This document shows positions 16,701 through 49,996 of a DNA stretch of 55,130 bases, one piece after another (within the stretch, counting starts at the first letter, position 1; the number at the start of each line of letters is the position of its first letter). The translations under genes and the position numbers were made by a program. A model generated the notes under the pieces. The model was not told where the DNA came from and searched no databases. It worked only from the letters and a program-made list of their open reading frames with translations. This stretch comes from Saccoglossus kowalevskii. Taxonomy: Eukaryota; Hemichordata; Enteropneusta; Harrimaniidae. Where the stretch lies: the NCBI RefSeq assembly GCF_000003605.2, contig NW_003142810.1:10742-65871 (forward strand), read 5' to 3'.

Positions 16701-19700
16701 TGTATTAGAAGCCGCATCTCTAATAGAAGTCGCATCCATTTTTTTTGAAGAATTGAGAACCAAAAATTCATCATTTCTCATATTTGTAGATGCTCTAATA
16801 GAAGCCGCATCCCCGCTGTTGCATTGTACCATTTTAATAGAAGCCGTGGTTTCTAATACAGATTTTACAGTAATTTTTTTTCATTTTTGTACACTTTTTA
16901 TTTGAGCTGCGTTAAAATCAACTAATAATTTGGTTATCTTTCACAAAATCAACACAATTTTTCTAAATTAAAAAAAAAATTGATCAAGATTGGTAGCCAG
17001 TGTAAAATTATTTTAATTTGGTTCAAAATTATTAAAAATTATGGAAAATGCGAAATTTTGCGGAAAAAAAAAATGCTGGAATTCATGAGCTTAAGCTCAG
17101 ATCACAAGGACACTACTTACCTAAATTTTCACTGGCTACAGTCACATTGGCAAACAGGAGATTCCTTTAAAACAATAAAAAAAAATATTTCAGATCAAAT
17201 TTATTAATAATGGTCACACAAATGGCAAGCTGATATATTTGTACTGCTGTTTGACTCCAATTCCATACAAAAGATTCAACACTACTGATGATTACATTAA
17301 ATGGGCGATATCAAGGGTTTATGAAGTATAAGGGTATACAACTAAGGTGATTCGCAAGGTAGATCACATCTGAAATCATGCAAATAGGGGATTTTCAGTT
17401 CAACTACGAGATCTCGCGAGATGCATGAAAGACGTGCGTCGAACATCTGCCGCAAAAATCAAACAATTTGATTTTGAACTCGAATTTCTTTATTTTCGTA
17501 ACTCACATCGACCGGCCATTCTTCAACAGATGAATATTGCTTTCAAATACCCTCACTTAATCGAAATTGTCTATCATCAAATGTATACAGCACATTATTA
17601 AGCATGGAAATTCCCCCCAAAATATGTTTCGAATCCCACGCGATGTTTGACGCCACTACGACTCTATGACCTTTATTTGTCCTGTTTTTACGTTTGATTT
17701 CATACATAACGCGTGATTCTCGCAGTGAACGGGAAAATGGTCTTTTGTACAGTGATCACTGATACACATCTCTAGAAATTCCCATGCAAACGAGTATGTG
17801 ATAGAAAAATTGTTCGTGACAGGTTGTTGCATCCTAGACATGCATACAGCATCTCGTTTATTTTTGGTGGTTTTTCACATAAAATAAAAAACAAGAGTGT
17901 ATAAATGACGAAAGATGGGTTACCACGAAATAAACAAGAGACTTGTGACCCTGAACCCAGACTGGCAACAATCATACAAGAGGACGTCTACAAGAGTCAC
18001 AAGTTCCTTGTTTATTTCGTGGTAACCTGGGCTTTCTCGCCATTTACACACTCCCCTAATAATTTAAGTGATTTAAAAAAACACCACAAAAGTTAACAAG
18101 CGACGGTATGCAAATCTAGTTGCATCCTGGCGTACTCCCAGATTAATGTTCAACTTCCAAATGCTCAGATTGTCAGTAAATGTGATAATTGGGAAACAGA
18201 AACAACAAATAGCAACCATTTCTACTAATTCATTTTGAGATTTATCTTTGGGAGCGGAGATATATATCAAGATGTTCTGCATTGCTAAGCTCACACCACT
18301 GTACCATGTATTTCTATGGGCTCAGCTGTGAGTTGCTGTGGAACACCGATTGAAGAGCCGGTGAAAATTCGAGAAAACAACACAAACTCAACTGTGAAGC
18401 AATTCTGAATAACCAAATTTATATATGTTACACACGTAGGGCTAATCTTGTTACACTGTTCAGAGGAGTCTCAACAACCATCGCAAAGTACCGTTTTCTG
18501 CGAGTTTTCGGCCTTTGTCATTTTCAGCGCCTGCAACCATCACGTGNNNNNNNNNNNNNNNNNNNNNNNNNNNNNNNNNNNNNNNNNNNNNNNNNNTTTC
18601 GGCCTTTGTCATTTTCAGCGCCTGGCAACCATCACGGTGAAAATGCCCGGATGTTCGCCCCAAAGAATAGTAAATTTTGAACGAAATTTCTAATTTACTA
18701 CTTTTATTACGATACTGACATAGAGAACATAGGACTAGGGGTCAAAAAAAAAAAAATACACAATTGACCAGTGGAACAACCACTCTGACAAAATGGTATT
18801 GTAGGCAAGCAGCAAACTTAAAAACTTAAAAACAATTTCCAACATTGGACTTACCTCACATCTTTGATTGTAAATTCTTTCACACCAAATACCTTTCCCA
18901 AAGGATCATCCGAACAATAAACTCTTCTGGGATCTAATTCATCGTATAAATATCTACTACTGATATATTTTATCAGATACGAGAGTAACTATAAAAAAAA
19001 GAGAGAGAGAGAGAGAGAAAAAAAGATACAAATTAATTATATATTTACAATTTTTTTTTAATTTGAAATTTAAATTTGTAAAGACATTTTTAATGAAATC
19101 CAAAAACACAAGAAAACTGACCTGTCTTGGTGTGAAAACTTGCCCATTAGCTCCCACGGTTGCCAGTAAGTTGAGGAATTCTTCCCTTGGGCGAACCTAA
19201 AATTAATAAAATGAAATATTTAGATACATAATGAAATTAATATTAATAACATCCACCATTGAATCACCCTAGCCTGGTAACTGGACTAATTTTGCGGTTC
19301 AACCCACTCAAGAATCTAGAAATGCTTAGATTTCGCTCTTCTGGTCAGTAAGTAATTGTGTTGTTGATAAAAATAACACGCCATTGATAGGTATCGGTAA
19401 CAGTTGTACACAACGCCCTCTATATTCACTTTCAACAGATCTTGGTACTGTAAAATCTGTATCAGAAGCCATGGTTTCTATTAAAATATTACAATGGTAC
19501 AACAGATGGAATATGGTTTCCATAAGAACATCTACACATATGAGAACTGACAAATTTTTGGTTGGTTTATTAAAACTGAGTATGTCTACTATTAGAGATG
19601 CGACTTCTCTAAATGTTGTGGCTTCTAATAAAGATTTTACATAACTATTTTTTTTTACACAAAAGCATGTAAACTCAAATAAACCATATATATACATGTA

Positions 19701-22700
19701 ATATAATTTTTATAGGAATCACACGTTCATAGTCCTACCTGTTCGCAAACATCAAAACAATAAACTTTGTATTCAAATGCGAGCTATTGTAATTTGAGCA
19801 ACCGTAGTAAATGTGTTTTATTGCTACAGTAACAATAAGAGACTTCGGACAATCAGATATGCAAATGATAATCATGAAACAGACATGAAAAGACATGACG
19901 AAACATGCTGTATTCAATTTAAGATATCTAAATAAACACTACTGGGTATAATGAGTAAACTAAACAACTTATCAGGGAATTTGAATGATGATATCGCTAT
20001 CTTGGGAATTTGAACAAATAATATCTCGTATGTTGACTTCTATAATTTTTTCTCTGCAGTGTTTAGAGATGTTGGCATCTGGCCAAACTTCAATTGTTAA
20101 CATAAAAAAATATAAATATGGATTTTTAAAGATAACAGTTTTCATAATGTTAGGTGACTTTGCATGATTGTTGTGTAAAGTGACTCTTTTTGTTTAAACA
20201 CCACCTTAGGTAGATAATAAATTTTAGGTAAGGTCCGGTTATCGGATTTTGTTATTTGCCCTAATGAAGACAAACAATGCCTGAATTAAATACACAGCTA
20301 TAATTTAACATTATCTGCAATTTAGAAAATTTAACAGACAACTTTATTAATTTAAGATTTTTAGCCATTAATTTTTCTTAAAGTTATAAATAATATTATT
20401 AATTCTATAGAGAAAAAAAAAGTAAAATCTTCATAAATATACATGTGTGTGGATGAACAAAAACTTTCAACACTTTGCTTCAAGTTTTATCGCCATGCCA
20501 ACTACTATTGCAACATTCGTATAATGAGGAGGGGTCAAGAGTTCGTGTGAAGAACGGTGAGAATACATGACTAGTTCTTCCAGTTGATTCAACAAAGTCG
20601 GCAGTCTGGCTACCACGCAATGCAAAACATTAGTTGCTACCAAGAAATCATCCTATTAGCATTGCAGTTAAAAAAAAAAAACGACAAAATTGGCTTTCTG
20701 TAAATCACCTCCACAATTCTCTCAGCACGATTTCATGGCCCATTTATCACAAATATTATACAATTTGTTTCAGATAAAATTAAGATGTTTAGTTGATTAA
20801 AAAGAATCATGGTATGTTTGGTCGATCCCTTATATCAACGACAGACGAATGTTCACATCAAAAATCACACATATAAATCATTAATGCGACAGTGTAAAAT
20901 GACATTTCACTTTTTTGATTTTTTGAGCATTTTCACTACGTTTTAATTTCACAAGTTTGTCAAAAAAACAATGAGTTTTATTGTAATTTTACATGTTCAC
21001 ATAGATTTAATTAATTTAGCGAATTTTACTTATCAGCGAAAATAGCAAAATTAAAACAAAGTGAACAATTGCATGTAATGTACTTACAGTATTTAGTTTA
21101 CTGGTATATGTACCGGTACTTCTAATATAGCAAATATACTACATACTGTAAAACACTTTGTTTTAGCTGGAATTAATTTTCACTGAAAAGACTTTTTTTG
21201 GGTGTTTTGTATAGAATTTATTTTCCCTGATTTTTAACAAGTTGAATGTAAAATATAGGAAAAAAGGTATATTCGCTGAATCATCCCTTCAGCGAAAATT
21301 AATTCCAAGAGAAAATAAAGTATTCTACAGTAGATTTCTGTTAGTCTAAATGTTGGATGAGCCTATGTCTATATCCTAGCTGTTGTCATGACAACACAGC
21401 TTCGTCTGTCAGAAAGAATGCCATTTACAATGTTATGTCATCCGATTACAAAACGTTAATAGCTTAATTTTGTATTGGTAGGAGTTTCCATGGTTACACC
21501 AAAAGTAATTGTTGACTTGCATCATTTAGTCAATGTAGCAGTAATCAAAACGCACCTATCAACTTTACATTGCCATGGCAACTACAGTTCTATGTGAGCT
21601 GAGAAACTTTTAAATGTTGTTAAAAAAATGTAATCTCTAAAGTGCTTGATGTCTAATTAAGCGACTATAAAACCTTTTTTTCTTACTAGCATCTAATTTC
21701 ACTTTTTTGATGTTTTGAACAATTTCAAAGGAAAATGGTTGGTATCGGTAATTTGTAATGTGATCTAGCTGATTATATTTCTATTTTTGTTTTACTACAT
21801 AATCAGGAATTTTTTTAAACAAGGGAACAGGGGCGCAGTGCCCTCATGGCATGGCCAAATGCCCCATTCCCCTGGGGAACAGATCCTCTGGCAACTGTGA
21901 CCTGTCTGATAGTAATTTTAGCCCCAAGGAAGCCATAGAATGCTCCATTTTAACTTAATTATCTAAAACTCCTAACCCTGGTAGGGAGAACCCTATCTCC
22001 CCCCACTTGGTGGCACCGCTGAATTGCAGTGCTCCCTCTAGCATTTTTTTTATAGAAAACCCCCTGATAATTATAATTACAGTAACAACAAAGATATTAC
22101 AAGATAAGTTGTCAGAGAGGTAGTCCCCTCTCCTCTGACATCAACACCTCTATGTTGTCATACATGTAGTGGGTAGTAACAGGTGGTTGTTGAAACCCAC
22201 TCAATAACAACAACATTATCCACACTGGCTTAGACACAATAGACATTACTGACGTGTGACTGGACACATAGTGACTTGTTAATACATGACCACACACCAC
22301 TTTATACTGAGCTACATTCCAATACACACATTCCAAGCAAAGTACTTGTATCCTGCCGATTGGATTAAGAACATTCCACATACTGGTACGAATTTACCAA
22401 GTTTATGAAAATCTAAATAACATTCTTGCATTTTGAGCATCCACAACGAGTTGGGCTCTTTCTCACGGCTCATTTAACTGTTGCAGGTCAAAGGTAGGGT
22501 AGAAATGGCTTTCATAGGGGGCAAAAGGTTGTGACCTCGCTTGTAATATTGTGAAAGTGTTGGACAATATAGTGGTAATAAAAGCCATACACATCTATAG
22601 CCAATCAATAAACAGCTGGTAATGGCATGCTCTGAGCTGTTACCATCAGTTTAGTACTTTAATAAAGGCTTCAAAAAAGACTATTGTTCTCGGGCAATTC

Positions 22701-25172
22701 ATGCTATTGAATAAGAAAGATAAAAACTATCACGTTCTTATTTTATTTTTTGGCTTTAAAAATGATACATAATTGTTGATTTACAGTTGTCAACTTTTGA
22801 AGAAAAACTTTCCGAATAAACACAAATATGCCCTTTTTGAAACTACTACCATAAAAATTCAGGATAAAGCATTATTTTATGAAAATTAAAAAGTATAAGT
22901 ATTTGCCAGAATTTTCTAATAATTCAGGACAACCATCTTATAAATAAAAATTATTTTTTCATCATATGTTACAAACAAAATTTTGAGTTATGACAAACAT
23001 TTTTTACAATAGAACCCAGTGTTTTCAACAAGACAAGAGACATGTAACATTTAGGACATGGTTTAATTTTTCATCCCAGGTTCTTAACTCTCATTAAACA
23101 AATTGTCTCACAAAAATATTAGAAAATATAAGTGACGCTGGCAATTCATAAGTGTAGAATAAAATTAAGACATAATAAACATTTGACTACACTGTCTCCA
23201 CTATAAAGGGAACAAAATCTGTTTCTAGATTCACATGTATGGGGAAATTGACACATATTTTCTAAACTGACGGCACAATTCAACCCTACTACGTATTCCT
23301 GGTGAGAACTCTGACGACTCGGTAATAAATGGCATTTTTGTAGGTATTTGACACATTTTTGGGGCTAAAAGAATCTGGATTTTCACAGCATAGAATAAAA
23401 TAAAGCTGCATAGTTAATCTTGCAAATAGTTTTGACAAGCAGCCTCTCAGCTGAGATAGCTCCACTGTTAGCAATGCACATTTCAATTAAAGAATTGAAG
23501 ATATAGTCAAAGAATGAATAAATCTGAGAGAGATCCACCTGTAGTACTTTTATGTATTGCAGTTTTTAACAAAAAGTCAAAAATATTAATTTTTACCAAG
23601 AATGAAAAAAATATTCATCAAAATTAGAGAATTGAATATATCATCACACAATGAACAAATCTGAGAGATGTCCACCTAAGCAATTGGATCAAAAAGTCAA
23701 AAATATCACTTAAGATTTTTTACAAAAAATTACAAAAATATTTACCAAAATTAGAGAATTAAAGATATCATCATGAAATGAACCAATTTAAGTGAGATCT
23801 ACCCAAGGTACATATATATCAAGTAACAAAGCAATCAGGTTTGTAGTTTTCAAGAAGGAGTAAAAAGTTGATGCGGGCGACAGACAATCACTGATATGAT
23901 AAGCTCCGCTTGACAAAGTCGACAGCGGAGCTAAAAATTATTAAATGCACGTTTAGTAAATAAAATTTAAAGAAATTCCAACCAAAGTAGTCCTGCTTGA
24001 ACATCAGTGGAGAAAAAAAAATGTGCACTATTTGTCAACATCTACCTGCCGAGGTTTAAATATTATTTTATTTCCACAAAATTTTTAAAAACATAAAAAT
24101 ACCTTTGTTTATAATTATATGTAATGTAAATCTTGCAACAGTTAACAATTTGAAATGGAGGGAGTCTGGAGATATTTAATAGCAATAAAATTCATTTATA
24201 TTATATGGCCACGTGAAAAAGAAATGTGGGAGAAGAATCATATAGAATAATAAAACAAAAACCATTTAATTAAGTTATAGGAAACATAAAACTTGTTTTT
24301 TATTTGCCTATAAAGAAAATTTTTATTTATTTTTGTTCTCCCCCATAACAATTTTGTTTTAAATATCCACTAGTATTCAAATCTGGAATGTCTAATCTTG
24401 GTATGCAGTTCTTGGTAAGCTGAAGAAGGTATCAAATGAGGTGTAAAAAATCACAAGACCATAGCTCAATGCATGTTGCATGATACCCAAAAATAGGAAA
24501 TGAGTTGAGACTGGAAAAACTTGCCAAATGTGGATATAAAAGCACCTGGAGTTTAATTGCTGACACACCTGATACCGACAAAGACAAATCTGAGTGTATT
24601 AATAGCAATGATGAAACCAGAGAAAACTTGTTGAGACTTGTCTCACAATGTTTACAATCTTGATTCAATAGCGCCCTCAGCAGGCAGAAAATGGTTGAAC
24701 TTCCCTCTTTTAAGATTTCTGATTTAAAAGTAGATTCTTATTAATATATAAAGTATTGAATATTATAGAAATTTATAGAAAATCATTACTGAGATTTGAC
24801 ACCTAGTCAGTCGGATTGGCATACTGAATTTGAATAGGGAGAAGAAGGACACCCCCCCTCCCCATAAAAATATTAAAGTGAAATAACATTTAATATTATC
24901 AACATGGTACACTCACCGCAATGTCCTTACTAGGCAACTTGTGTTCGGGTTTCAGTTCTTTGGCAAGAATTGCTGCCATTGCAAATGCGGCACTCTCTCT
25001 TTCAGATCTCGTGTTGACCGGTGCGGTTGCCGTAGCGATAATAGTTGGCCCTCCATGTGATGATGTTGCCGTGGCTGTTATTTCAACTGAGCTCTGGGAA
25101 CTGGAGGAAAGACGAAGGGTGGCGTCATCCTTACATCGACGCTGTCTTCTTCTCCTCTGCCCTTTCGGCATG
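9655..25172 (-). CDS. MDM2: MDM2/MDM4-family p53 regulator (RING E3 ligase), 12 exons, 817 residues
   Basis: MDM2 binds the p53-family transactivation domain through a SWIB fold and ubiquitinates p53 through its RING; MDM4 is the related partner. Exons join in phase: 24917-25172, 19122-19196, 18855-18988, 17121-17164, 16394-16467, 14947-15157, 14195-14268, 13092-13253, 12700-12789, 12074-12239, 11242-11313 and 9655-10751. Counting from ATG 25171, residues 86-160 are the SWIB domain and about 290-373 the acidic region. Cys378, 381, 392 and 395 form the RanBP2-type finger (C-x2-C-x10-C-x2-C). The RING ligands are Cys764, 767, His778, 783, Cys787, 790, 801 and 804, with spacing identical to human. 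The tail after the RING has the same length as in human MDM2, which matters because that tail supports dimerisation and ligase activity. The protein is much longer than human (about 491) because of its Ser/Thr/Glu-rich linkers. Two oddities are a missing SWIB segment and a 364-codon last exon. MDM2 rather than MDM4 is a convention here: a single invertebrate gene would be the ancestor of both. Confidence 0.9.
11242..11313 (-). CDS. MDM2: MDM2 linker exon (residues 429-453)
   Basis: 72 bp between acceptor GTTTCAG and donor GTGAGT, in phase with both neighbours. The product GVVASLTSSLRDVAVTGTD has no recognised motif. Confidence 0.65.
12074..12239 (-). CDS. MDM2: MDM2 exon, RanBP2-type zinc finger (residues 374-429)
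   Basis: The acceptor is TGTTTCAG and the donor GTAAGC. KWMCTKC, RYCVKC and LREGWLPD match human YWKCTSC, SHCNRC and LRENWLPE. All four zinc-binding cysteines are present. The exon continues into a basic stretch with KRSIS, a possible basophilic-kinase site. Confidence 0.92.
12321..12500. mobile_element. TA-flanked MITE family A, copy 1
   Basis: Termini (C/T)(C/T)GTAAAATCTGTATTAGAAGCC and the complement, TA on both sides. The interior contains TTGAGAACCAAAAATTCA, shared with 16691-16870. The open frame across it is only a shadow of the repeat. Confidence 0.75.
12700..12789 (-). CDS. MDM2: MDM2 exon, acidic region part 2 (residues 344-373)
   Basis: 30 codons, phase 0 at both ends. Begins EVYEFELCDDSES (human EVYQVTVYQAGESDTD) and continues as an Asp/Ser run (DDDSSDSDSDF), giving potential casein-kinase sites. 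Donor GTGAGT. Confidence 0.88.
13092..13253 (-). CDS. MDM2: MDM2 exon, acidic region part 1 (residues 290-343)
   Basis: 54 codons between acceptor TTATTAG and donor GTATGT. Contains LEEDARFSVEYEVES, aligning with human SDQFSVEFEVES at the start of the acidic domain, which in human MDM2 contacts the p53 core and ribosomal proteins. Confidence 0.88.
13413..13750. repeat. Dispersed repeat family D, copy 2
   Basis: Same block order as 4771-5110, with high identity over about 300 bp. Lies in the MDM2 intron between the exons at 13253 and 14195. The short open frame at its end has no coding meaning. Confidence 0.7.
14195..14268 (-). CDS. MDM2: MDM2 linker exon (residues 265-289)
   Basis: The acceptor is TCTTACAG and the donor GTATTT, which is weaker than its neighbours. 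74 bp in phase. The product DREPHSSTESSITTHKDTDT is acidic and Ser/Thr-rich, leading into the acidic domain. Confidence 0.65.
14947..15157 (-). CDS. MDM2: MDM2 linker exon, Ser/Thr-rich (residues 195-265)
   Basis: The acceptor is TTTTCTAG and the donor GTGAGT; 70 codons plus one base. Rich in Ser, Thr, Ala and Pro and probably disordered. It ends ALPGFDLLSERPN. No known motif is seen; inclusion rests on open frame, consensus splice sites and phase fit on both sides. Confidence 0.75.
15916..16295. repeat. Dispersed repeat family D, copy 3 (inverted, with fold-back end)
   Basis: Reverse-complement copy ending CGTTATGGTGACAGATGTATAATAAT. Its left part is itself an inverted repeat: AAGGTTATTATGAAGATACC against GGTATCATCGTAATAACCTT. 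The full element may therefore be a fold-back transposon of which other copies hold one arm. Confidence 0.65.
16394..16467 (-). CDS. MDM2: MDM2 linker exon (residues 170-194)
   Basis: The acceptor is TACTTTCAG and the donor GTAAGT. 74 bp, phase 1 in and phase 0 out. The product is His/Gln/basic-rich (EQHDASFQHHKRES, FKQRHYSQP) with no recognised motif. Assigned by splice sites and phase continuity. Confidence 0.7.
16691..16870. mobile_element. TA-flanked MITE family A, copy 2
   Basis: Termini CTGTAAAATCTGTATTAGAAGCC and the perfect complement AATACAGATTTTACAG, flanked by TA. 180 bp, the same length as copy 1. Confidence 0.78.
17121..17164 (-). CDS. MDM2: MDM2 exon, end of SWIB domain (residues 155-170)
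   Basis: 44 bp between acceptor TTTTAAAG and donor GTAAGT. Joined in phase to the previous exon it gives R-NLLFANVTVASENL, matching human R-NLVVVNQQ. The eight human residues before this Arg-Asn (98-105, containing Tyr100) have no counterpart, and read-through into the upstream intron meets a stop at once. The human exon is 50 bp with the same phases. Confidence 0.75.
17382..17743 (+). repeat. About 365-bp dispersed repeat E, copy 1
   Basis: About 85-90% identical by eye to 48830-49196 in the same orientation. Shared blocks include CGAGATCTCGCGAGATGC, CACTTAATCGAAATTGTC and CGAATCCCACGCGATGTTTG. Contains the palindrome TCTCGCGAGA at 17412-17421. No open frame is shared between copies. Confidence 0.75.
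17918..18027. repeat. Inverted repeat with 32-bp arms
   Basis: GGTTACCACGAAATAAACAA at the left pairs with TTGTTTATTTCGTGGTAACC at the right. Arms are 17918-17949 and 17996-18027 with two or three mismatches around a 46-base loop. It lies in the MDM2 intron between SWIB exons. Confidence 0.75.
18285..18670. repeat. Repeat F around the first assembly gap
   Basis: CACTGTACCATGTATTTCTATGGG and GGTGAAAATGCCCGGAT recur at 41407-41500. A 40-base block (CGGCCTTTGTCATTTTCAGC) appears on both sides of the N run. Confidence 0.6.
18547..18596. other. Assembly gap, 50 N
   Basis: Exactly 50 N, probably a nominal size. Near-identical 40-base flanks on each side suggest a collapsed or duplicated join. It lies in the MDM2 intron where a SWIB segment would be expected. 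Confidence 0.95.
18855..18988 (-). CDS. MDM2: MDM2 exon, SWIB domain part 2 (residues 111-155)
   Basis: A 134-bp exon, the same length as the human counterpart. It contains RYLYDELD, VYCSDDPLG and FGVKEFTIKD, matching human RLYDEKQ, VYCSNDLLG and FGVPSFSVKE. Of the human p53-cleft residues, Leu54, Ile61 and Tyr67 are kept; Gly58 is Ile, Met62 is Ser, Val93 is Ile and His96 is Val. Donor GTAAGT, leaving a two-base split codon. Confidence 0.92.
18998..19024. repeat. (GA)n / poly-A low-complexity tract at an MDM2 acceptor
   Basis: AAAAAAAAGAGAGAGAGAGA on the plus strand. On the minus strand it forms the polypyrimidine tract of the 18988 acceptor. Confidence 0.85.
19122..19196 (-). CDS. MDM2: MDM2 exon, SWIB domain part 1 (residues 86-110)
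   Basis: Exactly 25 codons, phase 0: VRPREEFLNLLATVG then ANGQVFTPRQ. It aligns without gaps with human VRPKPLLLKLLKSVG and AQKDTYTMKE, which is also encoded by a 75-bp exon (recalled from the human gene). Acceptor ATTTTAG, donor GTCAGT. Confidence 0.9.
19448..19642. mobile_element. TA-flanked MITE family A, copy 3
   Basis: Left end CTGTAAAATCTGTATCAGAAGCC; right end CTTCTAATAAAGATTTTACA with the last bases decayed. The interior is inverted relative to copies 1 and 2. All three copies lie in MDM2 introns. Confidence 0.68.
20890..21090. mobile_element. Palindromic MITE family C, copy 2
   Basis: Same order of blocks as copy 1 (TTTTAATTTCAC, TTTTACTTATCAGCGAAAATAG). A third, more decayed copy appears at about 14604-14870. 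Boundaries are approximate. Confidence 0.5.
21146..21330. mobile_element. TA-flanked palindromic MITE family B, copy 2
   Basis: Termini CTGTAAAACACTTTG and the complement of AAAGTATTCTACAG, with TA on each side. The interior shares GGAATTAATTTTC and the GAATGTAAAATATAGGAAAAA block with copy 1. Lies in the MDM2 intron between 19196 and 24917. Confidence 0.7.
23495..23935. repeat. Dispersed repeat with about 125-bp internal units, copy 2
   Basis: Three tandem diverged units, each with an AACAAATCTGAGAG-like and a CAAAAATAT-like block, then a terminal stem AGCTCCGC...GCGGAGCT at about 23902-23933. Same family as 850-1100. Confidence 0.65.
24917..25172 (-). CDS. MDM2: MDM2 exon with candidate start codon (residues 1-85)
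   Basis: The acceptor TTTTTTACAG is followed by C and then ATG at 25171. The donor is GTGAGT, phase 0. The product begins MPKGQRRRRQRR, a basic cluster that could act in nuclear import, then a Ser/Thr/Ala-rich stretch ending SKDIA just before the SWIB domain. Because a splice acceptor sits one base before the ATG, at least one exon lies upstream. That exon may be non-coding or may add N-terminal residues in frame. Confidence 0.75.
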
Positions 25173-25514
25173 CTGTAAAAAATAATGTGATAATTTATGG
25201 TTTAATAAAATACTTTTTCAATAGAAATGCTCAGATTTTAAGCTCCTTCATTTGATTGGAATTAAGCACATGGATCTTCGAAGATAAATGTTTTATAAAT
25301 ATTTCATAAATTTCTACAAAAGTGCTTGGTTTTTCATAAAATAAAAATGATGTTTCGGTATTCTTCATTGAAAATAATGAATAATATCTTAAGCTTTGTT
25401 TTCATTTTTGCCATCCAGCATGCCTGCTGTTAACAAATGCCTCAAAGATTGAAACAAACTCACGATCTCCTGTAACAACATATCCTGTACGTTGTCATAT
25501 TACATACATGTATA

Positions 25515-25681
25515 CTGTAAAATACTTTATTTTTGCTTGGAATTAATTTTCGCTATTTTCGCTGAAGAAATGATTCAGTAAAAATAAAATATACAGCAAA
25601 TATACCTTTTTTTCTATATTTTACATTCAACATGTTAAAAATCAGTGAAAATAAATTCCAGTTAAATAAAGTATTTTACAG
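25515..25681. mobile_element. TA-flanked palindromic MITE family B, copy 3 (inverted)
   Basis: Termini CTGTAAAATACTTTATTTT and the complement of AAATAAAGTATTTTACAG, TA on both sides. The interior is in the opposite orientation to copies 1 and 2. Confidence 0.7.
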
Positions 25682-26788
25682 TATTTAATAACCATATAGC
25701 AGCAAATAACGGCATTATTTTATCTTTAGGTACGAATGACCGTCAGTTACTGTGCACACACAGACGTGCAAAATGTAAATAAGTGCGATGGTTTAAATCA
25801 GGAAAAACGTATTACTATACTAAGACATGCTGATGATGAAAACACACATACCCAAGTTTGTGAAAAGTCAACTACGTGATTTCAAAACTAGTGAAACTCC
25901 TAAGAATCCTTAAAATTGTTAAATACAGTTTTAAAAAAGTATTTGGAATTTGTTTTATATTAGGCGTATAGATTTCTTATTGGTTTACATGTGAAAAAAA
26001 TGTACAAAAAGGGAAAATTAATTGTATTCATCAACCTTAAATAAAAAGTAATATAATATCTACAAGTATTTTCAGCGCAAACCTTCTTACAACCTCCTTA
26101 TTTTTCACTGGAAATTTAACCCTAAAGTTCTGTATTTAAATATTTCATTAATATTGCAGAAAGTTATGCATTCTTGGTCATATATTATACAGTAAATTAT
26201 TATTATTATTATCAAATTTAAAGCATTTCAAAATTTAAAAAGCTTTTATATAAAACTATTTCTCAATATCAATATTTGCAGTTCTCACAAGTTTTCAAGG
26301 AGAAACAAATACTACAAACCGTCTGAAACTAAATGAATTTGTAATGGTGATGTATATCTCTGAACTGTCATGTCGCGGGTCTGTATGTATTTAGACAGTG
26401 AGTTGTTTTGCAGTACATTGCAAATACAAATACCACCATACAAAATCTTTGTGAAATACACAATAATTGGATAAATATGCCAACAATTCCACGATTTGAC
26501 ATTTTCTTCAAGGAGTAGCAAGCGGACTACTTTCGAAATACCAATCATATAATAGTCCCATTATTGGTCTAACTGTACCTGGATTGAATAAAGGCCGGGC
26601 ATGCTGATGGACATACGTTGGTGTGAAACGGAAAAACTGGCCTGGATTTATCACCGCTGATTAAACGCATTTTGGTGTCCGTATAACGACGTAGAGACTG
26701 TACACCTCCGACTCTGGGAAAATCTGATTGTCATATGGGCATTTAAATAGGTTGAGTCTGTGCCAAGTTATGCGAATTGGGCGATCCC

Positions 26789-26808
26789 CGACAAGTCCAA
26801 ACATGTCC
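26789..26808. promoter_or_regulatory. p53 response element-like site (19/20 match)
   Basis: Two abutting decamers, CGACAAGTCC and AAACATGTCC, match RRRCWWGYYY at 9/10 and 10/10 with no spacer. The site lies about 1.6 kb upstream of the exon carrying ATG 25171, in the presumed first intron of MDM2. Human MDM2 has its p53 elements in the equivalent place (P2 promoter). On the minus strand a TATTTAAA motif follows about 45 bp downstream. Confidence 0.6.
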
Positions 26809-27383
26809 GCCATTGTTGCGTTGGACAGCTCATATTGATATGGGGGTTCCCTGTCATTTAAAGATACCTAGATACGACCTGGCATTTAAACACATCAACA
26901 TCTGAGTTACTTAAACGGACAGCATAGATACAAATTAAACTGAAGCAAGAAATTAGATAATTTAACACAAATTAATTTCATATATAAGTTCAAAGTTCAC
27001 GCAAGTAAATGGTACAGTGACCTTTATTCGGTGTCACGCCAAACGAAAACAACATGAAAACGTGCACGGATAAGTCACATACTATACGTCAAATTTGCAC
27101 CAAACCTGAGCAATATGGGATGACACTGCGGTCTTCTATCACGCCATAGACTGTGCCATACAACAGACACACTCAATAAATTCGTCTGTAACGTGCGACG
27201 GGCGGATTCAGAAGCATCGCGGAGAGCACGCCGCTTCGGATCGTCAAATTTACATACAGCTGAGATTACGTCAAAAAGGCGGGAAATTCGCACGCTTTCG
27301 CGTTTGTTTTAAACAAATTTGCCGAAAAGTATAGTTACAATTCCTTCAACAATAAAAGTAACGATGAAATTATAAACACTCAC

Positions 27384-27424
27384 CGCATGTTGTTAGTGAA
27401 CGGTACTCTGAATATTTGCTCCAT
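27384..27424 (-). CDS. MDM2: Candidate alternative first coding exon of MDM2 (b)
   Basis: ATG at 27424 opens 13 codons (MEQIFRVPFTNNM) plus two bases before a consensus donor GTGAGT. The phase matches the acceptor at 25172, so it would add 14 residues in frame before MPKGQ. A p53-element-like site lies 60-80 bp upstream. The same frame stays open further upstream, so the true 5' end is unknown. It might instead be 5'UTR. Confidence 0.4.
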
Positions 27425-27483
27425 GTTTTCGGTTGCGAGTGACGGCGAACAGTTTTTGGTTCCCAAGATATGGCTATCAACAT

Positions 27484-27503
27484 AGACATGTCTAGACACG
27501 AAT
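27484..27503. promoter_or_regulatory. Second p53 response element-like site (17/20 match)
   Basis: AGACATGTCT is a perfect palindromic half-site. It is followed without spacer by AGACACGAAT (7/10). It lies 60-80 bp upstream of the candidate first exon at 27424. Confidence 0.45.
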
Positions 27504-28274
27504 TGGATTGTTACAGCACTTAGGACAATGCACACAACACTCGCCAAGACATTTAAACATTTGGACCAGGTCCAATGGACAGAGTAATATCTAAAATTGG
27601 AAATCTAGTCGGAGCTTGTGTGGGACTTTTTTTTAAAATATAAAAAAAAGGAAAATTTAAAAATTGTATTCAAATTTGTCAAATTTCAGTACTAGGGTAT
27701 AAAAGCTTTTGTATGGATTCGTTTACAAGAATTTTACAGTGAAGAATATCGTTTTGCTTGTCATTAAATGTTAATCGTTTAATTTGTTACTGTTTCAGAA
27801 AAAGTTGTTTTATATCTGACGGAAAAAATGCAACAGCCTGCTAAGTGCACTGGCAACTGTTTTTGGACCCCGCCCTGGGCCCCACCCCATCCACTAAACA
27901 AATTAAGATACCAATGTTATAACTTCCCCCGCTCCCGTTTCCTGTCTCGGAAACTTAAGGTTTTCACTATACTAGTACTGCGTTGACATTACCTGAAGTG
28001 TGTCAATGAGAAAGGATGTGCACCATAAACGAAAGAGTTTACATGAACTTTGACCTCAAACTTCAAGCAGGATTCAGTTCGGTTATTTCATCTTTTCTAG
28101 AGGGGCGCCCAGGTTCTTTCAACTAGAAAGAATATTGGTTCTTACACGACTATAGAGCAACTATAATATAATACCCCACCCACCCCCAAGAACTGCAACA
28201 TAACACTCCCATCATGAACTAAATTTCTACCAGTGTCAAAGTTGCTAACCAATCGTAACGTGAATCGAAGTAGT

Positions 28275-28276
28275 AT

Positions 28277-28363
<87 letters not shown>

Positions 28364-28364
28364 T
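28275..28364. repeat. (TTTA)n microsatellite
   Basis: About 22 uninterrupted units of ATTT. The apparent open frame of LFIY repeats across it is an artefact. Confidence 0.95.
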
Positions 28365-28774
28365 TCGTATGATATTTATTTGCTTTATTTACAAAATGTA
28401 AGTGTAAACTTTGTAAAATTTGTGTTTAACCATGTAACTCTATTTGAGTTGTATTTTTTTGCATCTTCCACTGATTATTGTGATCACCATGATAAAATCA
28501 GTTGCTATGGCAACAATTAAATCATGAAATATTGCAATGATTTATTAACTGTTTTTCATAGAAAAGACGATCGATACACGATAAAAAAAAACAATCCGCC
28601 CGACTGCCGCCAGTCACCGTGACAAGTGGAGCAGCACGTGACTCTCTCTGGAAACTTCTTCCCAGTACGGTGACGCTGTGTTGGGTTTGGAGCACCGCGG
28701 AGGGCGCAACGCACGCGACCTCGTCAGGCTAGGTGACGCCTTGAGGTTCAAATAAGTTAATCTCCGTTTGTTGG

Positions 28775-28810
28775 TTTTGGTTTGTTTGTTTGTTTGTTTG
28801 TTTGTTTGTT
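28775..28810. repeat. (GTTT)n microsatellite
   Basis: About eight units of GTTT, 410 bases after the ATTT array. Confidence 0.9.
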
Positions 28811-28897
28811 ACGGTGCTCTCGGACCCTTGAATATTGATATCTCTAGTTCGTTGGATGTGCGGACGCATTTCATACTGTTTTGGTCGTCCAGCCGTT

Positions 28898-29032
28898 TCA
28901 ACAATAGATACATTTTAACCGCGGGTACTCACTTTCTCCTCCGGGGGTGTACTTCCACTTTAAGTGGGTAGGGGTGTGCAGCCATAGACCCTCCAGTAGA
29001 GGGTCTATGGTGCAGCCCACCTCTCGTAAACC
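28898..29032 (+). repeat. Local duplication, copy 1 (carries the 27-bp insertion)
   Basis: TCAACAATAGATACATTTTA through CACCTCTCGTAAACC is repeated at 29197-29291. This copy is 40 bp longer because of a 6-bp difference and a 27-bp palindrome plus its 7-bp target duplication. Confidence 0.85.
28983..29009. mobile_element. 27-bp palindromic micro-insertion with target duplication
   Basis: Arm CATAGACCCTC, five-base loop, then the exact complement GAGGGTCTATG. GTGCAGC lies immediately on both sides (28976-28982 and 29010-29016); counting the next C makes it 8 bp. The paralogous copy at 29269 lacks both the palindrome and the second GTGCAGC. Confidence 0.75.
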
Positions 29033-29196
29033 TTACTCCTTTCTAAACCATTTGTTTTCAGCGACCACATGTATAGTGTAGCGGGGGGTGTCACTGACGT
29101 GAAATACATGTAAAACAAATGTCTGTCAAATGTATCTTTATTGCCAAAATGACAGTGGATTTAAGTTACATGTGTATGTTTTACCATGGTGCTGTG

Positions 29197-29291
29197 TCAA
29201 CAATAGATACATTTTAACCGCGGGTACTCACTTTCTCCCCCGGGGGTGTACTTCCACTTTAAGTGGGTGTGCAGCCCACCTCTCGTAAACC
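29197..29291 (+). repeat. Local duplication, copy 2 (empty site)
   Basis: Nearly identical to 28898-29032 but with an uninterrupted GTGCAGCCCACC (29269-29280) where copy 1 holds the palindrome. Confidence 0.85.
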
Positions 29292-29683
29292 ATGTGCCAT
29301 GTGCACTATGATACGAGACATCGGACGCGAAAAACAAAACAAAAAACACACACACACCCAGCTCACAACTTTCGCAACCAGTGAGCGTATTTTATTCAGC
29401 CGTTTCCGGTATCTGGCTTTGAATATAAGAAGAACTTGTGAAAAAGTAAACAAATGTCACACACTTCTAAATCACTACCCACTTCTAAACAAAAAACGTG
29501 AAATGACCCAAGTATTGCACTTGCTCCGTCTGGGGACGGGATGGGGTACACTCCCTGCAAATTAAGTTATGTAATTGTGCGGGAATCCGACCTGATTAAA
29601 ATGATCCGATGTGGGTGTATGCTCTATTTTTTAAAATAATTTTTATATTTTTTATTGTTCTTTTCTTGCATTTCACTTGTTTT

Positions 29684-31815: not shown

Positions 31816-31967
31816 CGTCGTCCTGTCCTGTGGCGGCGCCGTGACGACATCACACGGCTCGGTAAAGTTCGATGCTGAAAAATCATATCTATAATCGTCA
31901 TGTTGTTGATTTCCAGAAACTTTGATAGTTTGGATAAATTACCGGCGTGAGCGATCACAGCAGCCAT
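31816..31967 (-). CDS. MDM2: Candidate alternative first coding exon of MDM2 (a)
   Basis: ATG at 31967 in good context (GACATGG) opens 50 codons plus two bases before donor GTAAGC. The phase again fits the acceptor at 25172. The product starts MAAVIAHAGNLSKLSKFLE and ends RRRHRTGR, which would join a basic stretch (MPKGQRRRR) in the next exon. No homology is recognised. Phase agreement has a one-in-three chance, so the support is modest. It could belong to an unrelated transcript. Confidence 0.35.
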
Positions 31968-34447
31968 GTCGATGGAGGCGTCGATACTGGGAATGTGACG
32001 CACAACGGTTGCTACTACTCGCCAACTGTGTGTTGAAGGGACATGTCTGTGGTTTCGACCGCATGCCGAAACATGACCTCATTTTAGTAAAGCGTACTAA
32101 AGCTGCTAATCAACGCCTTATAACTAGTGCCGATGGAAGTCACAATTTATCTACAATTAGAAACTAACGAGTAAACAGTCTTTATCATATTTTGGGCCAG
32201 AATCGAAATTATTATATTCGTACTTCGGGAATATACTGGATATTGAATAGTGACACTTTCGCCGATAGAGGGCGCTTGTTTCGCCAACACGCTGATTCAC
32301 GTATCAATAGTCAAAGAAAAGTACATGACAAAAGACAGTCTGTTACGGCCGTTGTCTAAGTTGTTCTAAATTGTCGCTCGGCAATAAGCCTCTAAATTAA
32401 CCAACAATGTATTGCAAATTAAGAATTAGTATGGTGCGTGCTTCGCAGCGGGAATAAATGTGTCGGTTACTTTAAGAAAAAACCCTTCACCCCGATACCC
32501 CTAGGGCTATGACTGTCTCATTAAGCGCTAACAGGTGTAGTCACCTTTGACCCGACTATTTGCGTTTGCGATTACGATCCTTTCTGTCCCTGTTTCTGCC
32601 TGTCAGCGAGAGACGTGATCACGATCGCCTGAACATTATCCAGCTGAATACACGTTATGTTGTTAAAACATGTACCTTGGTGTCAACGACATGTTGCTCA
32701 CTGAGCCACCGGGACTGACCGCAGATTATGTTCGACGGCATGTTCGGAAATTTGTCAAATTTTGATACTATAAACAGCATACGAACACTTTGGTCAAAAC
32801 ATGGATTTTTCGATTCCCTGGCGCCCTGGTTAATTCAGTAGTAGTTTTTCGCGTACATGTACATGTTTTTTTTCATAACCCGTCACCGAAGCGTGCGGTT
32901 TCCTCGACAACGTCGGTGCACTGTTACTAATAAAGAACCGGGGTCGGTGGCTGACTCGCTCTCACCTGGCCACATTCAACACACCTACTCAGACCACGGA
33001 TCAGTTTATTGTATACTGGATATAGACTCACAAATACACTGGTAAATCTGATAATGTGAAATTAAGTAGTCATATGCAAACACATCATTGGGCTTGGACC
33101 TTTGTCGTAACTTGTATTAGGACATTAAAACGAAAATGAGTTCCTTCATCACTTGGGTCGATGTATGGAAGTTTAGTGTTCTACTAAAAGGGAACTAATG
33201 TTTTGGCGCAAAAAAACATGTAAATGCCTGCCTCGGGGTACGAGTAAATCACGGGCGCTAGTCAAGGAGGCCACTATTATATATATTTGTGTGTGACCAC
33301 TACCATGCAGACACGGTTATTTCAGTCTGTGCTCGCCGAGAAGGGATGGATTCAGGCACGCATATGGTCTCAATAAACAAAATCTGAAATAGAAAATAAA
33401 TCAAAAAAAAAAAAAAAAAAAAAATTGACTCTGCTCTTTGAACTGCATTTATTTTGCACGAATTAAGCGACTAGAATCTTTAAACACTCATAAGTACTTT
33501 TTCTGGCAGGTTTACAAATTTAATAATATATCCTCAAACTGAGGCATCTTTGTCGATTGTTGGCAGTGCATGATGTAATGAGTTCTTCCTTTGTTTTGCA
33601 CAGATTGCAAACATGTACGTTACTTGTGCGCATATGAAAAGGTGTCCTCCTGAACCAGGAAATCCCCACCCCCCCAATCTGGAATCACATTTGACTTTTC
33701 TTGTTTATTTTTCTCATTTTAAATATAAAATATATGCGATTTGGGGATATACGCTTGTGCTTGTTTTCGACTTTGCGTGTTCATTTATGTAGATAATCAT
33801 CAATGTCGCTTTCGTCATTCTCAGATTTTTTTAAATCGAAGTTTGAGGGGCAAAGAGGGGACAAGACACACATTCAGAACCGTTTTTAGATTTTTACAAG
33901 AACAGATATTCTGAAAAACTTGTGCGTCGATGCCACTCCTAAAAATCAAGAGACCCGCCCACTGATGAAGGCTAAGGCAATATGCATTCACTAACGGGTG
34001 CAGGGGAGCCTTGATTACCCCGATGACAAGTACTTATGTTTGGGATGGCGTGGTTGACACTGGTATACTCAATGATATTGTCACTGTGATGATGGAATAT
34101 ATTTTTGTTTTTGGGGATAGAGTGACGATTGGAAAAAACAAATATTGTCACCGTCCAGTTGCGGTCGTATATTCGGCACTGGTCGGCATTGGCACGTACT
34201 ATCATCATTAACAACCGACTAGACTGGTACAGACGGGATTTTTTTTTTTGTGAGAAAAAATGGCAAATTTTCAATGCTTTTAGCGTGATTTCGGGAACCG
34301 ACAACAATCCCAGTCGACTGCATGGGAGATAAGCTCGCGAGATCAGAGACTATGTATCTCGGACACCGTTCATATTCTTCTTGAAGAACGAAGTTGAGGG
34401 TCTCGCCTGGGCATGAATGAGCGTCTGAGGGGACAGTATGTTAGTAT

Positions 34448-36269: not shown

Positions 36270-36432
36270 TTAAGACTGTAACTTCTCCAACGCGCTACTT
36301 AAAACGCTGAGGTCGCCCTTCAACTCGTTAACGACGTCTGCTATTCGTCTCACGTTGCTCAGCACCTCCACTGAATGGGTGTATGGATTGTACCGTACTG
36401 CAAACGGACGCTTTATCGTACAGGCAAACTCT
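36270..36432 (-). CDS. TPH: TPH exon 14: tetramerisation helix and stop (residues 405-458)
   Basis: [19 protein letters not shown] matches TPH1 IKRPFGVKYNPYTRSIQIL. It ends with a heptad-like helix ([19 protein letters not shown]), QS and a TAA stop at 36270-36272. Confidence 0.94.
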
Positions 36433-39400
36433 CTGTGGACGAAAAATAGTATACAATAGTTATGCTAATATCCATGTTTATTATTAATAATAATAATATT
36501 AATTATTAATAAGTATATTAATACTAAGTCTGTGTTCATCGAACTGTATGTTAATGAACACAGACTTAGTATTAGTTCGACGAAACGATAGAACACTCTA
36601 ATACGCATGCGCACTGGTGTTTTGGTACGTACAATATTATTCAGCGCGCATGTGTATTAGGACGTTTCATTAATCATCGCACCAATACTGAGTTGTGTTT
36701 TGGAACAACAGTGTGTCCATTTCATAATCAATCATCATTAAAACAACAATATTCAAAATTACATGTCCGTATTTCATCGTTACCATGGCAACGGACAGTT
36801 GCGAACCAACCGCCGCATTAGGTTGATTTATGTTACATACATGTCTTGCTGACAACGGGAGAGGAGGTGCAAACGTGTCGGATAAAACTACAACTTACCT
36901 CATCTTCTCCTTAGCTTCTTCAAAACTGTCGGACAGGAAGTAGCAGTTCTGGTATGTCGTAATCATACACTCTTCTTTAATCGTTTCTATTGGGTTAAAC
37001 GACTTTATAATAGCCTTGTCGGTGAGGGCGTGCTAGAACATATACATATTTATGATAAGTACATCTATAGTTATATTTACGAACGTATTTTTTTTACGGT
37101 GTCCGGGGACTTCCGATAAACGACGCTTTACCTCCCGTTGCGGCCCGAATATAGATGATATGGTATGTTAATAAATATGCATGACGTCATGATGATGGGA
37201 ACCAATCAGCTCTTACCTTCAACTCCCCAATTGAAGACAACAGACCAGCTCCGTACACTCTTATTTTTCCATTTTGCTTGCAAAGTCCGAATTCCACCGT
37301 GAAGAAATAACACTGTTGAATTTAAAACAAAATACACGACCGTCAGTAAATCTAGCGCAGTTCTAGCACTTATTATAAAAATTGATATACATGTTCTCGA
37401 CCACTGAGACAGTATACTATTACCCTCGTTCACGGGCTCAATTCAAAGTTGTGACTCGTTGTGGTCGACGCTTTTATCATGTCGGAGTTTTTGTGTACAT
37501 CTTTGATTTATTTTTTTCTATGATTAAGAAGGAAATAAATAACACACAAAGTCCAGGTTTGAAATTGTGTGTATATTAAATTTAATATTTAATATTTCCA
37601 GTTTTATATTATTATAACTTTGTTGATTCGTTCCGACTACACACAATTATATTGGCCATTTTGTACACATGAATCCAAACGAACGCAACTGAATCATTAA
37701 CTTTTCGGAAAACCGAATTAAACTTTCTCAAAATAGACCCATCATAACTTGTTTTTTATATACATGTAGTTCCAATAATTTTCATCGAAGCATGTAGAAA
37801 ATGAAAAGTTAAAACTATCTGGTCCGAAATTAACAAAGAATTTATAGAAAAGTTCATAAAAAGGTGCAATAAAAAATTGTGCGGGAATAATGATGTCTTA
37901 CAAAAAGTAAATCGTTACATAAATTATGTAGTGTATTCATAATTTCTTGTTCTAAGTGATATTGTTACTTACGGTTGCCAGTTTCTGAACTTCCTCGTCC
38001 GATGCCCCCAGCGAAGCTAAGCCAATCTCCTAGAAACATAATACATAGGGTTCAATTCGATATACCGTACACTCACAATTCTATCGATTAAAACAAGCAC
38101 CATTAATATTCGGCTTTCGGCTTAAAACTGTTTGTCTAATGTAGCTAATTGAGCGGTAAAAAAACAAAATGTCAGCAGTACCGTCATACTATTATAAACA
38201 GCCACAAGTAAGCGGCGATAATTGGTAATCCAAGTCTTAAGTAACTACTAGTATTTAATATAGCTAAAGGGTTTGGGCAAAGATCTTTCAGTTAAAAGTG
38301 AAAAGGCGTGTATTGTTATCGTTAACAGAACGTCTTTACTGTAGTGTATAAGAATGGAGTTATTGTTCACTACTCGTTACTGCGTTCACCTGTCTAAACA
38401 TACACCTCCCGAAGCCTATACTTGGCAATGTAACGGACACACATTCAAAATTCTTGAATGAACTCCATTGTGAAGACTCGGGCGTACTGTTTAACTGTTT
38501 AACACCTCGATTTTGTTGTCGTTGTTTTTAATACCTATTACTCTCGCCACATACTTCGAGATTGAAACTAGGATCGTATTGTAATCACGTTGGTACACAT
38601 GTACCCACGAAACCACAATGGCACTAATACTGGCGTAGCACTGAATTGCATTATCCGATTCGCTCTCCCATCCTTATTTATTTCACAGTCTCTCAACAGT
38701 GTGCAGGGACTGTGGTTATTTACCACGTGTTTATAATCTGTGGATGGAAAGTTTGTGGATTTGACCTGCTTGAACTAAATGAAGTGACAACCTCTCCTAT
38801 GTACTCACCCGTTAAAATCAAAAAGTTTATTTTAAGGCCTGGCACCAAATTTTACAGAATTTTGGTGAACAACAGTATTTGTAGAAGGTCAAAGAGGGCG
38901 CACTACATTTACAAACTTACCTGTGAAAACTGTGCAAAACTCTTGTCCGCTAGAAGCGGCACGTGACCAAGTAGCTCATGGCAACAATCTCTGAAAAATA
39001 AACCGAAAAATAATGTTGAAATCTTCGCTACAGACACAAATATTTTCATGTCCCTGGGCGTCGCGTGCACTAATTCAATGAGCGCGTCACAGGTTTAGTT
39101 TCAAATTTAATGAAATATCAAAATAAAAACAGAATTTTTGAAATAAAACAATCATAATCGATTTCAGAAAACATTTTTTTTCTGAGCAGCAATAGTAGGA
39201 AAACTGATGAGAACGCGACAAGCGTATTTGACACCGGATATACAATTGTAGTGTGGGTAACTTACGGTTCTTTGGTGTACAGTGGATCCGAGCTGTGGCG
39301 TATATACTGCGTACAATGGAAAACACGGAATGCCAGGCCAGCCAAGAAGTCACGTGGTGAGAGATATCCGGCAACAGGTCGTAGTTGAAAACCAGTTCGA

Positions 39401-42018
39401 GCTGGAATTGCAAAATATAGATTTATAGAGTTGCACGTGCGTCATCATAGTTGTAATATTTTAATATTTGTCGAAACAAACATTCCCGGGAAATTGACAC
39501 CCACCCCTTTCCAGACAGTCAAAAGACGAAAAAGATTATTCATTCATATCATTTTGTGAAAATGTTTACTGCGGTTCTTTGTTGGTGCTAGTTGTGTCCA
39601 GTGATAACGCTTTTTTATATTCAAGGGTGGATTCCTCTCAAATATTATAGGTTGAGAAAGAAGACTTCTTTTTTGACTCAAAAATCAACCTCATTTAGCG
39701 GCATACCACATTTTGTATTGAGGCACCCCCTCTGCCACAATCTTCTTCAATATATATATACACGTGACCTAACACGCAAAGGCTCATGGACAGACGCTTG
39801 TTTGTAAACATCGACACGCTATGACTATCTGCCGCATGCGCAGCTTGTGATTCTGTCGCTTTAATGATATTTATTAAAATTGGAATTCAATAAACTGACA
39901 CTCAGTTCCACATGAAGGTTTTGAAACGTAAATTAATTTTGTATACACGCGTTAGACAACCAGAAATGAAATGGGAGACAGTAGAACAACTTCGAGACTT
40001 TTCTTTTTTTAGTATTGGGTCGAGATTTATTTTCAGAGTGATGTTGATTTCATCTGTCAGATGTGATTTTGTCGCCAAAGTAAATACGCCGTGAGCAATG
40101 GTAAAATAATTATGTAAAGATATACAGTGCCTTTACCTTTAAGAAACTCAGACACGTCTTGTAGTTGGGGTATGGAATCCTTCCTAGATGAGAAATTAAC
40201 AAGAACTTGAGTACGCCAACAATAAAAAAGTCGGAGAGAAATACTTCATACTTGCTAGACGTGCAAATACGTTATAAAGAAGAACAGCGATGGAATCTCG
40301 TCACACGGCTTACCTGTAGATGCCTTCCTCTACCAACACTTTGAAGTTCTCCAGATATTCCCTGCAAGCATGGGTTGGATACAGTCGACTCAACTCCGTG
40401 AAAACAGTGCCCCTAGAAACACAAATGAATCACATTAAAACGGAGGGGGTCATCACCTGCGCATGCGCGGGAATTGGATCCCAAGCGACGATGACAACGC
40501 ACACTAAAAACGTAAAGACTTATGGGTAGACGCTTGTTTGTAAACAGCGACGCGCTATGGCGTATGCCGCATGCGCAGGTGACGACACCCCCGCGTTAAA
40601 CATCTCCGGGACCCAACCCAGTACATTGGCAAATGGCGTGGCGTTCCTTACTGAAAGTAGTCCTACTATGTAATGGTATATATCCGTTTAGAAATGACTA
40701 CTAGTATATGTATTTTAATTACTGGTTATAAACCTAGATCTGCTATTAGTCTGCGTGTCCACACGTATAACGACCTGTAGACTCGTATTGCCCCCTCGTG
40801 ACTGTAAATAGCTTACCATGTTTTCGTTTCACTTTCGCTATATTCCACTCTTTTCATTGGTTGACCGCTATAAATTTGAACAATAAAAACATAGTTTAAA
40901 TATCAGGACTGTGAAATATTAGATATAGTTTGACACAAAATAGATTTAATCGTAATGAATAATCGGTTTCAAAGTCGTTCGAAACACCTATTTTCCAGAT
41001 GGTCATTGATTCAAAGTGTTGTCAGGTGGAGTAAGTCGCGCCCTCTAGTCAACATGATGGTGTAGCAATATCGATCAAATAAACAACTATGTTGTGAAGT
41101 AATTCGTCATTTAAAATACAGCAAGTCTTAAAGAATAGTGCTGGGCGTCCATAGATCAAAAGAATAATGGCGAATATGAAACACACATGTCACAGAAGCG
41201 GTTTGGCGCTAGAGGGCGCTCGGTGTATCGTATTGACTATTTTACTTTAAATACAATGTACGTACTGCCTGTATTCGTACCCCAATTCTGTGAAATACTT
41301 CCGTCTTTGTCGGTACTCGGGATCCTAAAAATCAAATAACAAACAAATATATTAGGAATCCTCGGGGGCGGAGCTACGTCACAGACGTTCCACGTTGCTA
41401 AGACGCGCACCACTGTACCATGCATTTCTATGGGCTCTGTGCGCGCTGCTGTGCAACCGCGGGTTGCCAGGCGGTGAAAATGCCCGGATATCCGCCCCCG
41501 AGGATTCGCTATTGTCAATACATCTGCAGGCGCCTGGTGAGTTGTGTTCCCTGAAAAATCATACTTTATTTTTTTTTGAACGTCCTTAAAAAAGAATGTA
41601 ATTCAAACATTATCCATATACGTAACCCTTCATGGTCCAGTCGTGACAATTTATTTATTATATGCTAATTAAGGTAAAAGCCTATTTATTTTTCAATAAA
41701 CTGTATCCCAGGACAATATAATGAAGTTGACTTCTTAATAAAAGTTTCGGCTCACCAACCTATTTTTCGAGTAAATGATGGTTGTATTTTGAAATTATTG
41801 AATATTAGAATTAGAACATTTTTACCCTCGTTTTCTATGACAAGGATATTGTCGTATATATCAGAGTGTAGGCATAGAAAGAACAAATTACTAGTATATA
41901 TCGTGACTGGGAGTCACTTTTTGATATTTTGAATTTCAAGAATCTAGGTTTTAAAAAAGTTACAATATTTAGTTTTAACATTGTGTTCCATGGAATTGTT
42001 CTAAAAGATCAGTCCGGT

Positions 42019-42049
<31 letters not shown>

Positions 42050-49768: not shown

Positions 49769-49996
49769 GCGATGGCCGCCGAGGTCTCGTTTAGAGTGAA
49801 ATGGTTACGAGACTTGTTTTTGTCCCTCAAACAGCGTCACATTCTCCTCCGCCACCATGTCCGCTGTTCTTCTGACCTATGTAACCATGGTAATCGAACA
49901 GTGGACGCAATGATGAAAGAGAATGAAACATTTTTCGAGAAGCAAAAACAAGTCTCGTTGTTCTCTCGCTCACGACGAGATCTCGGCGGCCATCGC
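49769..49996. mobile_element. 228-bp imperfect fold-back element
   Basis: GCGATGGCCGCCGAG at the left is the complement of CTCGGCGGCCATCGC at the right. ACGAGACTTGTTTTTG also recurs inverted. The two arms of about 105 bp meet near 49880. A long open frame starts in the left arm with a good Kozak ATG, but its sequence is explained by the palindrome. Confidence 0.7.

Follow-up and report, generated by a model that had tools for sequence, protein, structure and literature searches.

Our analysis suggests that an MDM2 gene carries a p53-family response element, namely the 20-bp sequence at positions 26789-26808, perhaps aided by a second one at 24624-24643, and that this element closes the p53-MDM2 loop; we consider this reading fairly likely. 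Positions refer to the window, that is, the whole stretch of 55,130 nucleotides that was analysed.

The minus strand of the window carries a gene in which the SWIB domain, the zinc finger and the C-terminal MDM-type RING were all found, and these three matches bore out the earlier identification of the gene as MDM2; judged by homology, it is a genuine MDM2. The SWIB domain is divided between two exons placed by homology, 19122-19196 (minus, 75 nt, phase 0, VRPREEFLNLLATVGANGQVFTPRQ) and 18855-18988 (minus, LLSYLIKYISSRYLYDELDPRRVYCSDD...), which when joined encode the p53-binding domain and align without gaps to the Mdm2 chains in the PDB (E 2.1e-15), with a Pfam SWIB match of 28 bits, above the cut-off of 25. 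The MDM2-type zinc finger lies in an open frame at 11871-12251 (minus; E 2.5e-8 to a human sequence, phmmer), whose score against Pfam Zn_ribbon_RanBP, 19.4 bits, is under the cut-off of 27. The frame with the MDM2 RING at its C-terminal end (9655-10791, minus) is matched more closely in the PDB by Mdm2 chains (best E 1.4e-19) than by Mdm4 (best E 2.2e-15). When this frame was compared with the 572-Mb genome, with all five candidates scored, the one strong match was the frame itself and the other match was weak (34%); by these matches, MDM2 is found once in the genome. An aromatic amino acid hydroxylase-like gene lies upstream on the same strand (36270-44445, about 36.3-44.4 kb, minus), recognized by an exon-by-exon match to a human sequence, with a Pfam ACT match under the cut-off. 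A tRNA scan and a comparison of the window with a phage collection gave nothing useful.

The start codon ATG 25171 is bases 2-4 of a coding exon at 24917-25172 (minus; MPKGQRRRRQRR..., donor GCG/GTGAGT), which continues in phase into the SWIB exon. The position of this exon resembles that of human MDM2 exon 3, where the start codon likewise stands at the very start of the exon (bases 5-7; PMC2567066). On the gene strand between 25172 and 32966, the sole donor above 6 bits is at 27384 (6.2 bits; CAACATGCG/GTGAGTG), and the sequence ending there, with ATG 27424 (MEQIFRVPFTNNMR), would be the 3' part of the first exon (27384-27424, minus). The donor scores were built from assumed frequencies; since 19 donors above 6 bits were found on the minus (gene) strand and 1 on the plus strand, false donors of this strength are rare here. 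Three known acceptors, used as a yardstick, score 3.2-4.6, and within 27390-27800 none above 1 was found; therefore the exon ending at 27384 is probably a first exon, and the internal exon that we also considered is less likely. This may be the end of a longer coding exon, a reading kept in play because the frame above ATG 27424 stays open for 60 codons, as it does at 3.7% of random positions. ATG 27424 joins the next exon in frame, with a predicted addition of 14 residues, and the observed/expected CpG ratio in 27000-27449 is 1.5-1.8 vs a window mean of 0.96.

By this splice model, intron 1 spans 25173-27383 (minus). Since the donor at 27384 puts the probable first exon above the 26789 site, the site falls in intron 1, as in human MDM2. 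The same intron holds a MITE-like element at 25511-25688 with perfect inverted ends of 21 bp (25512-25532 and 25664-25684). Among the 40 scored of 3308 genomic candidates, this element was found in at least 39 other places, mostly 85-93% identical, and all 75 match rows besides the locus itself fall on it, the widest reaching 25479-25691; no second haplotype copy of the locus, sought for polymorphism, was among these 40. Above exon 1, a 78-bp direct repeat, 96% identical, occupies 28892-28969 and 29191-29268. Two donors on the minus strand between the hydroxylase gene and MDM2, at 31816 (5.9 bits, in CpG-rich sequence) and 32966 (7.4 bits), possibly mark additional first exons of MDM2 farther upstream. 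Positions 32039-32048 form a perfect p53 half-site.

The earlier note had described a 19/20 site without a spacer at 26789-26808, and it is there as described, the best of the window. It reads CGACAAGTCC+AAACATGTCC, with one mismatch and both CWWG cores intact, and its CATG and CAAG/CTTG cores belong to the more active classes (PMC4323202). A second 19/20 spacerless site, absent from that note, lies about 2.1-2.2 kb away in intron 2 (24624-24643, AAACTTGTTG+AGACTTGTCT); both of its cores are intact, and both are CTTG, a weaker class than CATG (PMC4323202). These two sites agree with the p53 consensus of two RRRCWWGYYY half-sites separated by 0-13 bp. Their flanks, 26600-27550 and 24440-24760, each have one match in the genome, namely themselves. 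Next to the 26789 site, ACAATGGCGGAC at 26813 on the minus strand contains an ATG that is well placed and opens a short frame; alternatively, it may be a YY1-like word.

The other site named earlier, 27484-27503 (AGACATGTCT+AGACACGAAT, 17/20), is present in sequence, and its quality is within chance (33 per Mb). Its first half is a perfect half-site and its second half is poor, with a CACG core and two further misses, three mismatches in all, so that closeness to the p53 consensus in both halves was not found. Both this site and the 26789 site had been placed between the candidate first exons and the exon of ATG 25171; the 26789 site does lie in that intron, whereas the 27484 site falls outside it, 100 bp above the exon-1 donor at 27384 by the splice model, in or just above exon 1. 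Given its chance-level matrix score, we rejected it as one half of a pair of elements. It could instead be a Smad element, or nothing, rather than a p53 site. The palindrome GTCTAGAC, presumably a Smad motif, bridges the join of the half-sites at 27490-27497, and the p53 score of the site is ordinary; however, the palindrome occurs once more in the window (1174) and so is not rare, and the first half-site, AGACATGTCT, is a perfect one for p53. We regard this explanation of the site as somewhat unlikely.

The 26789 element had also been assigned to an internal promoter of MDM2. The part of this claim that stands is the position of the element, in the intron above the coding exon; the promoter itself is weakly supported overall, the best donor below the site scoring 2.3 bits. 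A separate promoter like human P2 would start near 26710, use a first exon with a weak donor, for example 26579-26580 (minus, TCAATCCAG/GTACAG), and reach ATG 25171. It would fit the exon at 24917-25172, which begins with its start codon as human exon 3 does, and the precedent of human P2, an intron 1 promoter with a pair of p53 elements (PMC4323202, PMC2567066, PMC12096895). A TATA-like sequence, TATTTAAAT, is present 39 bp downstream of the 26789 site (26741-26749, minus), and the word TATTTAAA is expected at about 0.014 per 60 bp, but looser TATA words reach 0.11-0.15 per 60 bp; we judged TATTTAAA near 26745 to be weak proof of such a promoter. In 25175-26800, the highest donor score was 2.3 bits. 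As a yardstick we used 13 homology-supported exon ends of the two genes, excluding the zinc-finger and ACT blocks, whose ends are not at splice junctions: nine scored 5.2-8.7 and one 3.4, but three scored 0.0-1.9, lower than the donor at 26579. A donor this weak therefore lowers the standing of an internal promoter yet could still serve one, and we consider such a promoter unlikely.

The two 19/20 sites could also be random matches without function, and their rarity bears on this explanation. Counting spacerless sites with up to three mismatches gives 16 in the window vs 11.8 expected, and 12 of 100 shuffles reach 16; the class of the 27484 site is thus not above chance. When the limit is one mismatch, again without a spacer, two sites are left in the window, those at 26789-26808 and 24624-24643, vs 0.10 expected, and 3 of 300 shuffles reach two. 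In the 4 kb from 24000 to 28000, bounds picked so as to hold both sites, the shuffle expectation is 0.008, and none of 3000 shuffles holds two. When spacers of 0-13 bp are allowed, the sites with at most one mismatch number 4 vs 1.3 expected, suggesting that the signal comes mainly from spacerless sites. The two spacered sites start at 49926 (spacer 10) and at 11811 (spacer 2); the latter, 11811-11832 (AGACAAGTTG-tg-AAACATGTTT, one mismatch), lies inside MDM2 near the zinc-finger frame. Under a Poisson model, the probability of one spacerless site with at most one mismatch in intron 1 is 2.2e-3, and that of two in the whole window is 1.5e-3. For two in 19197-29400, the 10.2 kb of the MDM2 5' end, it is 5.2e-5, with bounds set after the sites had been seen.

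An earlier proposal was to score the window with a p53 matrix to see how rare such sites are, and we did so with a matrix built from the 15 half-sites printed in PMC10426914 and PMC4323202. The 26789 site scores 23.7, rank 1 in the window, vs 22.9 for p21 and 17.8 and 15.5 for the human MDM2 elements, the human elements being in the training set and the 26789 site not. The 24624 site scores 17.3 (rank 2) and the 27484 site 11.1 (rank 7). In 10 Mb of Markov sequence, scores as high as these occur at rates of 0, 0.8 and 32.8 per Mb for the 26789, 24624 and 27484 sites, respectively; the outcome of the check is thus divided, with the first site unmatched and the last one common.

Genome-wide counts speak for chance. 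Spacerless sites with at most one mismatch number 571 in 572,110,611 bases, about 1 per Mb, and the reversed-motif control gives 510, so that most matches of this class are probably due to chance; moreover, about 1.2 pairs as close as this one are expected somewhere in the genome. However, this pair sits at the gene most strongly predicted beforehand as a p53 target, where the Poisson value for the 10-kb 5' region given above applies, the region having been singled out owing to the known biology of MDM2, and the 26789 site outscores every site in the Markov sequence. We find it quite unlikely that both sites are random. It is very improbable that the 24624 site matters alone, for example at a second start that p53 represses, as is reported for P3 in intron 3 of human MDM2 (PMC12096895): the site lies 274 bp below the exon resembling human exon 3, with a donor of 6.0 bits just below it at 24569, but its doubled CTTG cores are of the weaker class and its score of 17.3 recurs at 0.8 per Mb.

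The partner of MDM2 was found in the same genome. An intron-bearing p53-family gene (C1341) encodes a DNA-binding domain that, among solved structures, is closest to the p53 of the annelid Alvinella (7pc6, E 4e-76; entry identified via PMC8901663), followed by p63/p73 (best E 8e-64) and then by vertebrate p53 (best E 2e-48). Its stretches SSCVGGLNRRPI and VRICACPGRDR are identical to those of Alvinella p53 and hold the equivalents of Arg248, Arg273 and Arg280, which are key DNA contacts (PMC8901663). An open frame that precedes the DNA-binding exons by about 8 kb reads ...PLSQETFNQLWTTLGDITDNG and contains the transactivation domain (TAD) motif FNQLWTTL, which makes it a candidate TAD exon by motif. 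The form of this motif, FxxLWxxL, is that of the MDM2-binding motif. A motif scan of three loci listed five matches, the other four of which are without p53-like context. Since a p53 with its DNA contacts and the MDM2-binding motif was found in the genome that carries MDM2, this animal appears to encode the two proteins that the loop requires. A search of 29.5 kb around the p53 gene itself, a region with N in parts, gave no spacerless site of one mismatch or fewer.

The genome also carries an intronless p53-family copy (L008 1501-2706; G000 C654, from 61257), whose open frame of 402 residues takes in positions 72-192 of the 193-position DNA-binding domain profile as well as the tetramerisation motif and a SAM domain, and whose 5' part falls in a run of N. 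It shares 77-90% DNA identity with three exon stretches of the intron-bearing gene, and looks like a p53 retrogene with its frame still open.

Under the preferred reading of the 26789 site as a p53-family response element of MDM2, we infer that a p53 tetramer would bind the element in intron 1 after stress, and that the bound element would work as a promoter-proximal enhancer rather than as an internal promoter. Transcription would then rise from a putative start close upstream of the first exon, whose donor is at 27384. The extra MDM2 would bind the p53 transactivation domain and lower p53, as in the vertebrate feedback loop. That the whole p53-MDM2 negative feedback loop operates in this animal, with its element at the address it has in the human gene, namely the intron that leads into the first common coding exon, is a tentative proposal that we hold, on the whole, to be unlikely.

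The arrangement resembles human P2, in which spacerless p53 elements likewise occupy the intron that precedes the first common coding exon. The two human elements are 17 bp apart, whereas here about 2.1 kb separate a strong element in intron 1 from the other in intron 2; and human P2 has its own first exon, whereas the donor for such an exon here is weak (2.3 bits). Outside vertebrates, p53 of Trichoplax binds in vitro three sites, TXRe320/350/540, located 320-540 bp ahead of the coding part of Mdm2, but did not activate a reporter in human cells (PMC5039725). There too, the gene is a non-vertebrate MDM2 with p53-like elements at its 5' end; those of Trichoplax are upstream of the coding region and were bound in vitro, whereas those described here are intronic and predicted from sequence. 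The predicted addition of 14 N-terminal residues recalls HDMX-L, in which an alternative first exon (MDM4 P2, exon 1-beta) adds 18 (PMC12096895); the extension here would be on a single MDM gene, and that of HDMX-L is on MDM4.

Given Trichoplax, the idea that the loop predates vertebrates is not new (PMC5039725), and the locus here could add a protostome-like case, a placement drawn from the closeness of its p53 to that of Alvinella and from the single MDM gene; by its sequence, it is a further candidate instance of a kind already known in vertebrates and partly in Trichoplax. The evolution of the p53 and MDM2 proteins has been traced across animals (PMC5543598), in a text where 'promoter', 'response element' and 'feedback' have no occurrences. 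Among the matches listed from the open-licence literature (titles and starts of abstracts), there was no p53 element of a protostome MDM2, and, in the sources covered, Trichoplax was the sole non-vertebrate in which MDM2 sites had been put to a test.

Transcriptional negative feedback has a model case in the p53-MDM2 loop, and the age of the DNA part of this loop becomes testable with a specific 20-bp element from an invertebrate MDM2. If the whole loop does operate from the address that it has in humans, the position of the cis-element would date to the bilaterian ancestor, a dating that takes the animal as protostome-like.
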